Assembly (NCBI GenBank): GCA_020832405.1
Contig: JAFIET010000006.1
Coordinates: forward strand, 1 to 64,000
Length of the DNA: 64,000 bases
From: Balneolales bacterium
GTDB taxonomy: Bacteria > Bacteroidota > Rhodothermia > Balneolales > Cyclonatronaceae
Direction: 5' to 3'
Below, piece after piece: positions 28,338-31,943 of the stretch. Below the pieces are notes generated by a model. It was not told where the DNA came from, searched no databases, and worked only from the letters and a program-made list of their open reading frames with translations. How positions within the stretch are numbered: the stretch's first letter is position 1; the number at the start of each line of letters is the position of its first letter. The position numbers and the translations under genes are program-made.

Positions 28338-28877
28338 TTACAGATCGCCGTAAAAATGGAAGTTATCAGGAAGTCCTTCGAGTTCAGCATCGGAAGCACT
28401 GCTTGAGGAAACCCGAGCATTGCTGATGGTGTAAACGCTCACGAGAAAACCTTCCACGTAAACTTCGTCTATCTTAAGTGTACCTGTAACGCGGAGGGGG
28501 TCGAAGGTATAAGTTGCTAATGGTCTGGTAGTTTCGATCATCAGTGTTTCATTGGCTTGAGGCGGCGGCACGTGCATGCAACCCATAAACGGAGCCTGAA
28601 GCAGAATAAACTGCGTGATGTTTTCGATACGGTCGAAAGGCACCATATAGCCCACTACGCTGATTTCCTGCCCGTTCAGCGCTTTGAGGTCTTCGGGTAC
28701 CGCTGCATTTTGCCGGTGAATCTGGTAGCGTCTGAAATCGCTGAACATGATGCGGGGTGCTTCTGATGAAGCCTCAGAAAGGCCCGCCTCACCAACGGCA
28801 GCTGAAGTTATCGTGGGTGCTGCGCCAAATACAGAAAGCGTGAAAAGGACGATGAACAAGCCTGATACAGTCTTCAT
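28338..28877 (-). CDS. DUF3299 periplasmic protein
   Basis: 179 residues with a signal peptide (1-26). Family mark: VVGYMVPFDRIENITQFILLQAPFMGCMHVPPPQANETL, with a conserved Cys/His pair (GCMHVPPP) that may bind metal. It is the last gene of a four-gene minus-strand unit, 20 bases after the FtsX-like permease. DUF3299 proteins are commonly found beside MacB-like ABC genes in zinc-responsive clusters (Vibrio ZrgABCDE is the described case, from memory). So a periplasmic metal-handling role is plausible but not proven. Confidence 0.82.
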   Translation of the reverse strand: MKTVSGLFIVLFTLSVFGAAPTITSAAVGEAGLSEASSEAPRIMFSDFRRYQIHRQNAAVPEDLKALNGQEISVVGYMVPFDRIENITQFILLQAPFMGCMHVPPPQANETLMIETTRPLATYTFDPLRVTGTLKIDEVYVEGFLVSVYTISNARVSSSSASDAELEGLPDNFHFYGDL

Positions 28878-28897
28878 AGTTTCAAAAAGTTGAGGGG

Positions 28898-30445
28898 TTA
28901 GGGAGCAAGATTTGCGACAACATCCGTGCGGTAAGCTTTGAGTGCTGGTATGATACCTGCCAAAATACCGAGCAATACAAACGTTAGCAAGGTAACGAAC
29001 TGAGCGCTGTCTATTGCATAGGCCGAAACGATGATACCGGCGGTTTCAGCTATAAACGGAGCTGTGGCGGCAACAATTCCGATACCGCCGGCAAGACCCA
29101 GAATACAGCCGATACCCACAATGAAACCGGCTTCCAGCAGGATAAGCCCGAGCACGGTTCCGCGCCTTGCACCAAGGGAGCGGATGATGGCGATATCGCG
29201 GCGGCGTTCTTCCATGGTGTTGTAGATGGCAACCAGAACGCCGAAAAGAGCTACGATAAATACGAGCCAGCCTACATAGCGAAGCACAAGTTCGGCATTC
29301 CCGATAATGCTCATCAGTTCCTGAATCTGCATGGCGGGCACTACGGCCATTAGTTCATCTTTGTGTGCAAAGAAGGGATCGCGCATCATATTGCGCGCCA
29401 GCAGCGGATTTTGGGGTGTCGGCATATTGATCATGCCGGCAATCTGCAGCGCGGCAGCCTGATTGCCAAAACTCAGTAAAACGGCATCGAGGCGGCTTAC
29501 ACGGCTTTCATACTCCGAAAGCGGGTGCGGAAACTGACGGCTGAGCCGCTCGGTCATGGCGTTAAGGCGCTCCGTATCAGCCGGTGCATGGTGGCTGTGG
29601 CTGTGCCGGTGCGTATGGCTGTGGTTGTGCGCATTGTCGCTGCCATGACTGTGAGAAGCGTGGTCATGGTCCTCACCATGATCGTGGTTGTGGTCTTGCT
29701 CGTGCTCGTGGTCATGATCATGATCATGATCATGACCGTGCGCATGGTCGTGATCGTTGTGCTCGTGATCGTGATCGTGATCGTGGTCATGCGCATGGTA
29801 GTGCACTGCATAGGCACTGTAGATGCTGGTAAAAATTACATTGTCGTGGGCAGTGCGGCTGGGCTCGAGAATGCCCGTAATTACAAGTTCGAACTCATCA
29901 TGCACGTGCGGCTCAATGTCGTCACCATCAAGCTCGCTTACACCGTGCGTCATAAAAAAGGTGTGCCCAATTCCGATGCCGAGCCTTCGTGCTGCATTGC
30001 TGCCGATTACGGCTTCAAAAGGGCGTTCAAAATTCCGGCCTTCTGCGATCTGGAAAGGCTGCCCGGAGCGGGGTTCGCCTTCAGCGATAAACCCGGCTGA
30101 GGTACCTACAACCCGTACGCCGCGGTAGTTGTCACCTACAAAAACGGGAAAAGCCTGATCGATGCGGCCGTCGCGAAGGGCGATCTGATACACATCTCCG
30201 GGAATTACCCCGGTAGAGGTTTCAAGGTGATAGATTGTGTTGAGGGTCGTTTGCATCCGGCTGCCGGGTGCAGCGAGGATTAAATCGAAGCCGACCGAAG
30301 TTTGGGTGTAACCCTGTTCGGTTTCGCGTTCGAGGGTTTGCACCGCAATAACGAGGGATGCGGCCAGCGCTACTGAGCCAATGGTAAGCAGAGTGCTGAG
30401 AAGCCGCAGCTTCATATTTTTGAAAACTATCTTTACAGGACTCAT
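28898..30445 (-). CDS. FtsX/MacB-type ABC permease with poly-His periplasmic loop
   Basis: 515 residues. N-terminal helix (about 12-34), a periplasmic domain (about 40-375), and three C-terminal helices (about 385-410, 435-462, 478-505) with the FtsX core (MEERRRDIAIIRSLGARRG). Inside the periplasmic domain, residues about 215-286 contain roughly 32 His among 72, mostly as HD, HE, HN and HS pairs, typical of metal-binding spacers. The rest matches MacB-like permeases that couple ATP hydrolysis to periplasmic work. It overlaps the ATPase gene by 4 bases and precedes a DUF3299 gene, so zinc or another divalent metal is the probable ligand. Confidence 0.85.
   Translation of the reverse strand: MSPVKIVFKNMKLRLLSTLLTIGSVALAASLVIAVQTLERETEQGYTQTSVGFDLILAAPGSRMQTTLNTIYHLETSTGVIPGDVYQIALRDGRIDQAFPVFVGDNYRGVRVVGTSAGFIAEGEPRSGQPFQIAEGRNFERPFEAVIGSNAARRLGIGIGHTFFMTHGVSELDGDDIEPHVHDEFELVITGILEPSRTAHDNVIFTSIYSAYAVHYHAHDHDHDHDHEHNDHDHAHGHDHDHDHDHEHEQDHNHDHGEDHDHASHSHGSDNAHNHSHTHRHSHSHHAPADTERLNAMTERLSRQFPHPLSEYESRVSRLDAVLLSFGNQAAALQIAGMINMPTPQNPLLARNMMRDPFFAHKDELMAVVPAMQIQELMSIIGNAELVLRYVGWLVFIVALFGVLVAIYNTMEERRRDIAIIRSLGARRGTVLGLILLEAGFIVGIGCILGLAGGIGIVAATAPFIAETAGIIVSAYAIDSAQFVTLLTFVLLGILAGIIPALKAYRTDVVANLAP
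29588..29803 (-). repeat. In-frame hexanucleotide repeats coding for the His-Asp run
   Basis: The minus strand encodes alternating His and Asp/Glu/Asn/Ser from imperfect CATGAT/CACGAT hexamers, with runs of four to five units near 29710-29740 and 29765-29785. Low complexity makes it prone to slippage by multiples of 6 bases, which keep the reading frame but change the number of His residues. Confidence 0.85.
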
Positions 30446-31113
30446 ACGGGAACCGCCTGGTTTAATTCTGTGAGATCGATGTTGATTTCAAATTCGGCAA
30501 GCACTTCGGTTTCGTGGCTCACCAGGATAAGCGTTTTACCGGCCGTGATTTCTTTAATCAGCGCCAGCACTTCAGCCGATGTTTTGGGGTCGAGTGATCC
30601 TGTGGGCTCATCTGCCAGAATAATCTCCGGGTCGTTGGCAAGTGCCCTGGCAATGCAAACGCGCTGCTGTTGCCCAACTGACAGCTGAGAGGGCCTGTTA
30701 TGCAGCCGTTCGCCAAGCCCGACTCGCTTCAGCAGATCCTCTGCCCGTGCCGGCGGGATTTTCTTATCGGCAAACTGCATGCCCAGCTGCACATTTTCCA
30801 GGGCAGTGAAGCCGTCAAGCAGGTTGAAAGACTGAAAAATGTAGCCTATGTGGTTGGCACGGAAGCGGTCCCGCCGGGATTCGGCAAGTTTTGTAATATC
30901 CCTTCCCAAAATGCTGATTTCGCCTGAATCAGGTAGGGTCATGCCGCTGATGCAGTGGAGAAGCGTAGTTTTTCCGGACCCTGAGGTGCCGCGGAGTGCA
31001 ATATGTGTGCCGGCTTCAACCTTCAGTGAGGGTATGTCCAAAACGGCTTGCTTAAGCCCCGTTGATGGTTCAGGATATGATTTTTTTAAGTGAGATAAAG
31101 CAATGGCGGCCAT
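30442..31113 (-). CDS. ABC transporter ATP-binding protein (LolD/MacB type)
   Basis: 223 residues from the ATG at 31113; a longer frame to 31269 runs into the preceding gene and carries no family sequence. Walker A is GTSGSGKTT (42-50), the signature is LSVGQQQRVCIARALA, Walker B is IILADEPTGSLD, with switch His in LVSHE. This is the MacB/LolD/FtsE-like class that drives FtsX-type permeases by mechanotransmission, not by passing substrate through the membrane. The 4-base overlap with the permease shows they form one complex. Confidence 0.9.
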   Translation of the reverse strand: MAAIALSHLKKSYPEPSTGLKQAVLDIPSLKVEAGTHIALRGTSGSGKTTLLHCISGMTLPDSGEISILGRDITKLAESRRDRFRANHIGYIFQSFNLLDGFTALENVQLGMQFADKKIPPARAEDLLKRVGLGERLHNRPSQLSVGQQQRVCIARALANDPEIILADEPTGSLDPKTSAEVLALIKEITAGKTLILVSHETEVLAEFEINIDLTELNQAVPV

Positions 31114-31198
31114 AGAAAAATGAACCTTATGATTAACAGATGAATGGTTTTGGAAACGGTAAAAAGCCAGGCAAATTATAGCTGAAAACGATACGCTA

Positions 31199-31708
31199 TT
31201 ACCGTATGAACTCGATAAAATGACCCTCCTGTATATCGTGCCGGGCGGTGAACCCGCCGTGAACCTCAACTACGTATAGCGCTGGTCGGCCGGAAGGGTA
31301 CTGCTGCTGAGAGAAAGGAGTAGTATTCTGATGAATACGGACAATCTCAAATTCATCATTAACGAATACCATGTCGAGCGATAGAGGGGTGTTCGCCATC
31401 CAAAAACTAAGGGGCTGCTGCTGATCAAAAATGAAGATCATGCCCCCGTCTTCCGGCATTTCGTAAACGTTCATAAGCCCCTGCTGTCTTGCCATGTTGC
31501 TTTCAGCAACAGCTACCCTAACGGTAGCAGAAGGTTCCTGCGCATCATGTGAAGTTTTGAAATGAACGGTAGCCGGGTACTCAAGCACACGGGCAGCCGC
31601 AGCACTGCCTGTCTGTTCACCGGTGCCACCGTTATCATCGCTGCAGGCATTGAACAATAAAAAGAGCAAGGCAAATGCCGGTGCAACAAAGTAAGCAGGC
31701 AGTCTCAT
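31199..31708 (-). CDS. DUF192 lipoprotein
   Basis: 169 residues from the ATG at 31708 (MRLPAYFVAP); the longer frame to 31837 adds no conserved sequence. Signal peptide with lipobox LFNAC, then the DUF192 domain (AVAESNMARQQGLMNV, GGMIFIFDQQQPLSFWMANTPLSLDMVFVNDEFEIV, PALYVVEVHGG). DUF192 is a common small secreted domain of unknown activity. Located 85 bases upstream of the ABC ATPase gene, so it may be co-transcribed with the metal-linked unit. Confidence 0.82.
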   Translation of the reverse strand: MRLPAYFVAPAFALLFLLFNACSDDNGGTGEQTGSAAAARVLEYPATVHFKTSHDAQEPSATVRVAVAESNMARQQGLMNVYEMPEDGGMIFIFDQQQPLSFWMANTPLSLDMVFVNDEFEIVRIHQNTTPFSQQQYPSGRPALYVVEVHGGFTARHDIQEGHFIEFIR

Positions 31709-31943
31709 AAAGTCAGGAATGTTAGTTGAGAGGAAAGTGATTGCCAAAGTGCGAAGCGCGAAGTTAAGAAAGCATGGGCATAAAGTTAAGCATAAGCTGT
31801 TGAGCTGTTTTAGTAATAAGATGCAATTATGTTGCACAATTTAAGTAAAGCAACAAGCTGCTGTTCACAGAGTTCTGCTCAGCGGGGTGGTCAGTGGTTT
31901 GTATAAGGCTTCCAAAAAGCGTATATTAGCAATCTGAAAGAAA

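Follow-up and report, generated by a model that had tools for sequence, protein, structure and literature searches.

A predicted Zur-controlled Zrg-family ABC operon with a histidine-rich loop inside its type VII permease

What might an ABC permease do with a dense run of histidines in its periplasmic domain when the histidine-rich helper protein ZrgA is missing from its genome? This question is raised by a four-gene operon of a Balneolales bacterium, which lies in a stretch of 64,000 nucleotides that we call the window. The four genes were confirmed at their positions, all on the minus strand, in the order DUF192 lipoprotein, ATPase, FtsX/MacB-type permease and DUF3299 protein, with likely starts at 31708, 31113, 30445 and 28877, respectively (Table 1). 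They are tightly packed, the permease gene overlapping the ATPase gene by 4 bp, and they are divergent from a rimP-nusA-infB-like group. The ATPase retains intact Walker A, signature and Walker B motifs; its closest NCBIfam models are LolD, DevA, FtsE and MacB, all with scores below the model cut-offs. Profile homology, a set of invariant residues and the adjacency of the ATPase and DUF3299 genes identify a Zrg core, comprising a ZrgB permease, a ZrgC ATPase and ZrgE/DUF3299. The whole genome gave no match to ZrgA (PF10986), and for this reason we do not class the operon as a complete ZrgABCDE system. Scans for sigma-70 promoters and Rfam families returned nothing useful.

Table 1. Features of the operon and its upstream region, in window coordinates.
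Feature	Position	Strand	Basis or remark
DUF192 lipoprotein, first gene of operon	31199-31708	-	PF02643, E 9.4e-29; lipobox LFNAC
ABC ATPase, LolD/MacB type	30442-31113	-	PF00005, E 1.5e-35
Zrg-type permease (type VII, FtsX/MacB/LolC fold), 515 aa	28898-30445	-	PF12704 MacB_PCD and PF02687 FtsX
DUF3299 protein (ZrgE/PA4066 homologue)	28338-28877	-	PF11736, E 1.3e-15
His-rich periplasmic loop, residues 215-286	29588-29803	-	32 His in 72 residues; densest 72-residue window of permease
Asp105, invariant	30131-30133	-	101 Asp and one gap among 102 Zrg permeases
His167, invariant, strand end before hairpin	29945-29947	-	102/102 Zrg permeases; 0/25 paralogous permeases
His182, invariant, start of next strand	29900-29902	-	102/102 Zrg permeases; 0/25 paralogues
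Asp201, invariant	29843-29845	-	102/102 Zrg permeases; 6/25 paralogues (weak alignment)
His215, invariant, last core residue before His loop	29801-29803	-	102/102 Zrg permeases; 1/25 paralogues
Predicted Zur operator TGCAATTATGTTGCA, inverted repeat	31822-31836		114-128 bp upstream of operon's first ATG

The outer genes of the operon presumably both have roles in the system. The DUF3299 protein begins with a signal-like segment and matches PDB 4hsp (E 1.8e-9). Its Cys100 (28578-28580) is present in 97/97 DUF3299 proteins, within C-x-H-x-PPP or C-x2-C/H variants in which a His or Cys follows the Cys in many members, and this conservation marks it as a possible metal ligand; that DUF3299 may be a zinc acceptor is our guess. 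Two or three tandem DUF3299 genes stand beside several proteobacterial Zrg loci (L210, L246, L248, L249, L261). In the genus and family members sampled, and also in another family of the order, the DUF192 gene adjoins the Zrg genes; other Zrg loci are without it. In the operon of one genome of a related family (G017), a gene for a heavy-metal (HMA-domain) lipoprotein sits between the DUF192 and ATPase genes (L360:17479-17781). A lipoprotein as first gene, and the HMA-domain lipoprotein in one second-family operon, would suit a LolCDE-like machine whose cargo, extracted or delivered under zinc starvation, is the DUF192 (or HMA-domain) lipoprotein of the same operon, the permease loop acting as a metal switch, and LolCDE is indeed the best solved fold for the permease and LolD the best model for the ATPase. 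We hold this to be quite improbable, as the DUF192 linkage was seen in this order only and the LolCDE fold match is unspecific, because all type VII transporters have the same fold.

The original prediction drew attention to about 32 histidines in a 72-residue stretch of the permease, a figure that proved exact (Table 1). The histidine codons are mixed (12 CAT and 20 CAC), and a congener permease that is 83% identical keeps 28 of the 32 in alignment, with an identity of 61% in the loop versus 88% in the core. The mixed codons and the retention of the histidines in the congener argue that the loop is neither a product of chance nor purely a DNA-repeat accident. It is not confined to this genome, and every member of the genus sampled retains 13-32 loop histidines. 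Long spurious open reading frames cross the repeat in other frames (29525-30100, plus; 29554-29817, minus; 29584-29832, plus) and are not genes. An AF2 model of the permease (mean pLDDT 87) is good throughout except for the loop, which is disordered, and the closest solved folds are LolCDE (the best), MacB, the streptococcal MacB-like permease 5xu1 and the haem exporter HrtB. The model and these folds identify the protein as a type VII ABC permease whose loop faces the periplasm. Searches of open-access papers returned none that describes such a loop in a Zrg permease.

Conservation around the loop directs attention to the core of the permease. Five Asp/His residues (Table 1) are invariant among 102 distinct permeases, down to about 25% identity, and the His residues are not kept in paralogous FtsX permeases of related genomes. 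The paralogue N-termini were left unaligned by hmmsearch and hmmalign and were placed with a MAFFT add-on instead, which gave weak alignments. Runs of histidine are inserted at two places, both touching invariant residues: directly after His215, as here, and, in another lineage, in the hairpin flanked by His167 and His182. These two positions lead us to predict a core metal site, which Asp105, His167, His182, Asp201 and His215 are presumed to form by coming together in space.

DUF3299 loci were gathered from named genomes and from two phyla, represented by 394 and 398 genomes, and their surroundings supplied 98 distinct Zrg permeases. The loop is present in 0/56 loci with ZrgA, none of which has more than two histidines at the loop position, and in 30 of the 42 without it (at least six histidines; range 8-51), an exclusion with a Fisher p of 8e-16 when kinship is ignored. 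ZrgA was absent from every loop genome searched, the sole trace being a fragment in G064 that scored below the cut-off. In a loop-free tree the ZrgA loci form one large group, with one ZrgA-less loop permease inside their clade with good support (L205) and two near its base (L253, L254); well-supported branches force at least eight changes of loop state, and two to three swaps between ZrgA and loop are seen. Kinship-independent comparisons number only two to three, all in the expected direction, and the exclusion is thus consistent, though not significant by a sign test. In twelve of the 42 loci without ZrgA, the usual place holds no loop. One of these, from Phycisphaerales, encodes a permease whose His run falls between residues 167 and 182; in another, from Sumerlaeota, a separate, adjacent lipoprotein-like gene with a His-rich tail takes the place of the loop. 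The permease with the most loop histidines seen, 51, is that of Taylorella (L045:4893-6497), whose genome has no ZrgA. Six gamma-type loci that at first appeared to lack both ZrgA and loop do have ZrgA, which lies just past the fetched stretches.

These results bear on the proposal that the metal-binding part had been fused into the permease. The His-rich element does lie within the permease, in a genome without ZrgA, and excludes it; what is present is only a disordered His-rich loop that lacks the ferredoxin-like ZrgA domain, so that fusion of a ZrgA domain is not borne out. The same arrangement, sought in relatives, is the common form in most ZrgA-less lineages sampled. Alternatively, the loop might be a metal buffer or a low-complexity expansion that plays no part in transport, the permease being otherwise an ordinary Zrg permease: loops differ widely in length and in number of histidines (8-51), some relatives have nearly none, and V. 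cholerae can dispense with the His-rich loop of ZrgA, although not with ZrgA itself (PMC9820375). By this last result, a His loop on its own may fall short of the whole job of ZrgA, and we would regard the result as the main caution against equating the two. We nevertheless consider a buffer or expansion unlikely, given that His positions are kept while their neighbours change, that the exclusion with ZrgA is strict, and that loops have been gained repeatedly beside invariant His residues.

Upstream of the operon we found a near-palindrome, TGCAACATAATTGCA, which is a predicted Zur operator. A matrix for the palindrome TGCAAYnnnRTTGCA, trained only on sites upstream of a putative zur gene, gives this site 17.1 bits, the top score in the 64 kb window, where the next site reaches 8.0 bits; the pattern TG[CT]AAN5TT[GA]CA has its single match in the window at the same place. 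A search for Zur boxes before 31113 and 31708 had been suggested: a predicted box lies upstream of 31708, and none was found before the ATPase start at 31113. In the 3.96 Mb genome a pattern search, as distinct from a matrix scan, returned four full palindromes, including that of the operon. The other three lie at a FUR/MerC gene pair, at a TonB receptor divergent from a DtxR-linked A-I ABC cluster, and in a fourth region whose congener counterpart precedes a lipoprotein and a TonB-receptor-like gene.

The motif recurs upstream of this second FUR-family gene, the putative zur with a MerC-family gene next to it, both here and in most relatives examined. One type of COG0523 GTPase has one or two sites in G000, in the congeners G001, G004 and G005, and in other genera (G006-G008, G014, G017), and the other COG0523 type has no such sites; part of the COG0523 family, a subset, has a link to zinc homeostasis (PMC2770081). 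Before the operon itself, the box is found in 7/11 related loci (G001, G003, G005, G006, G008, G014, G026) and is missing in the remaining four (G002, G004, G017, G023). Since one operator is common to the putative zur, the COG0523 GTPase and TonB receptors, the operon very probably belongs to a Zur regulon and is induced by zinc starvation, the regulator being putatively Zur.

Several other genes were observed near such boxes. The predicted box precedes a pair of lipoprotein and TonB-receptor-like genes in two congeners (L315, L321); in the G000 counterpart (L312, G000:C164) it lies near a similar receptor-like gene, and a lipoprotein frame was not seen in the ORF list. A protein family with an HQQCWCWG motif occurs at a predicted box in two congeners (L318:4148-4729, L328:503-1117), and its L318 member has no Pfam match. 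In distant bacteria, too, genes of MerC-like type are found repeatedly next to the putative zur and in the neighbourhood of Zrg-type loci (L152:2554-3435, L129, L135, L141, L205, L221; Pfam-confirmed for L152 and L205, and identified by reading the sequence for the others), which suggests a zinc-linked role for MerC-like proteins.

The regulon also bears on the identity of the metal. The A-I ABC cluster that shares the operator was considered as a ZnuABC system and rejected on account of its DtxR/FeoA-type neighbour, which makes manganese its likely substrate. Its place behind a DtxR/MntR-type gene, the capacity of His runs to bind several metals and the HMA domain in one related operon would all be compatible with the same machine handling nickel, cobalt, copper or manganese. 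We judge another metal very unlikely, as the operator is common to the putative zur and to a COG0523 GTPase of a family with a zinc-linked subset, and the characterised homologues are zinc-regulated.

Taken together, these observations indicate that the operon is probably a Zur-repressed, zinc-starvation-induced Zrg-family ABC system whose type VII permease carries its own zinc collector. Zinc starvation would lift repression by Zur, and TonB receptors under the same control would carry zinc into the periplasm. There the disordered His loop, lying beside conserved Asp/His residues, would collect Zn2+ and hand it to the Asp105/His167/His182/Asp201/His215 site in the periplasmic domain, from which ATP-driven movement of that domain would release it, to enter the cell or to reach an acceptor in the periplasm, for instance DUF3299. 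The loop would thus replace ZrgA, the separate collector protein of most gammaproteobacteria. Zinc binding by the loop and the permease, the hand-over from loop to site and the direction of transport are presumed in this scheme. We further propose, tentatively and at somewhat less than even odds, that a mechanotransmission (type VII) ABC transporter here serves as its own zinc-binding receptor, the loop and the invariant Asp/His site replacing a binding protein, and that such transporters make up a binding-protein-free class of zinc ABC systems over several phyla. The observation behind the original prediction is confirmed, and its interpretation is supported in part and extended to a ZrgA-less Zrg variant with the His loop inside the permease.

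The Zrg literature is divided, one group viewing ZrgA as the binding protein of an importer and another taking the transporter for an exporter. A naturally occurring ZrgA-less variant, and five invariant permease residues common to both variants, suggest that metal is handled by the core of the permease. The five residues are named targets for mutation, and the predicted operator defines a candidate Zur regulon for the lineage that is open to testing.

Among known zinc systems, cluster A-I importers (ZnuABC) are distinguished by a PF01297 binding protein and a ZnuB-type permease; the operon contains neither, the genome's only PF01297 gene lying elsewhere. The ZepA zinc system was rejected as a match, as its paper never mentions FtsX, MacB, DUF3299, an ABC transporter or a permease. 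ZnT7 and other carriers with His-rich loops resemble the permease in loop composition (a phmmer match to 8j7t through the loop alone) but belong to an unrelated protein family with an unrelated mechanism, so that the likeness is compositional. MacB and LolCDE share the fold and the ATPase type; MacB, however, needs MacA-TolC and LolCDE has two permeases, and the proteins described here score below the MacB and LolCE cut-offs (permease, 30 versus 362 bits for lolCE; ATPase, 185 versus 308 bits for LolD). The paralogous permeases, in turn, have neither the invariant His set nor the His loop.

Pseudomonas PA4063-PA4066 (PMC8561739, PMC11481552) has the same core genes and the type VII fold, and there PA4063 (ZrgA) supplies the His-rich part. 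Both this system and Vibrio zrg are Zur-regulated and zinc-linked (PMC9817125, PMC9820375, PMC11481552). In a P. aeruginosa zinc-importer mutant, deletion of PA4065 caused no further drop in cell zinc, and the authors regarded the system as one that exports pyochelin-cobalt (PMC11481552). Together with the match to the MacB fold, this reading would allow the operon to encode a MacB-like pump, induced by zinc starvation, that would clear the periplasm or cytoplasm of a metallophore or metal complex while the loop protects or senses. Such a pump seems to us rather unlikely, because the operon contains no gene for a MacA-type adaptor or a TolC-type protein and mutation of zrg in Vibrio gives a zinc-acquisition phenotype (PMC9817125, PMC9820375). 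The parallel with Vibrio ZrgABCDE (PMC9817125, PMC9820375) that was originally drawn holds: the permease (about 25-30% identical), ATPase and DUF3299 protein are homologous, and both systems have a His-rich metal-binding element and Zur control, which for the operon described here is predicted. Unlike the Vibrio operon, the one described here has no ZrgA or ZrgD-like gene, carries its His-rich loop inside the permease, and includes an additional DUF192 lipoprotein.
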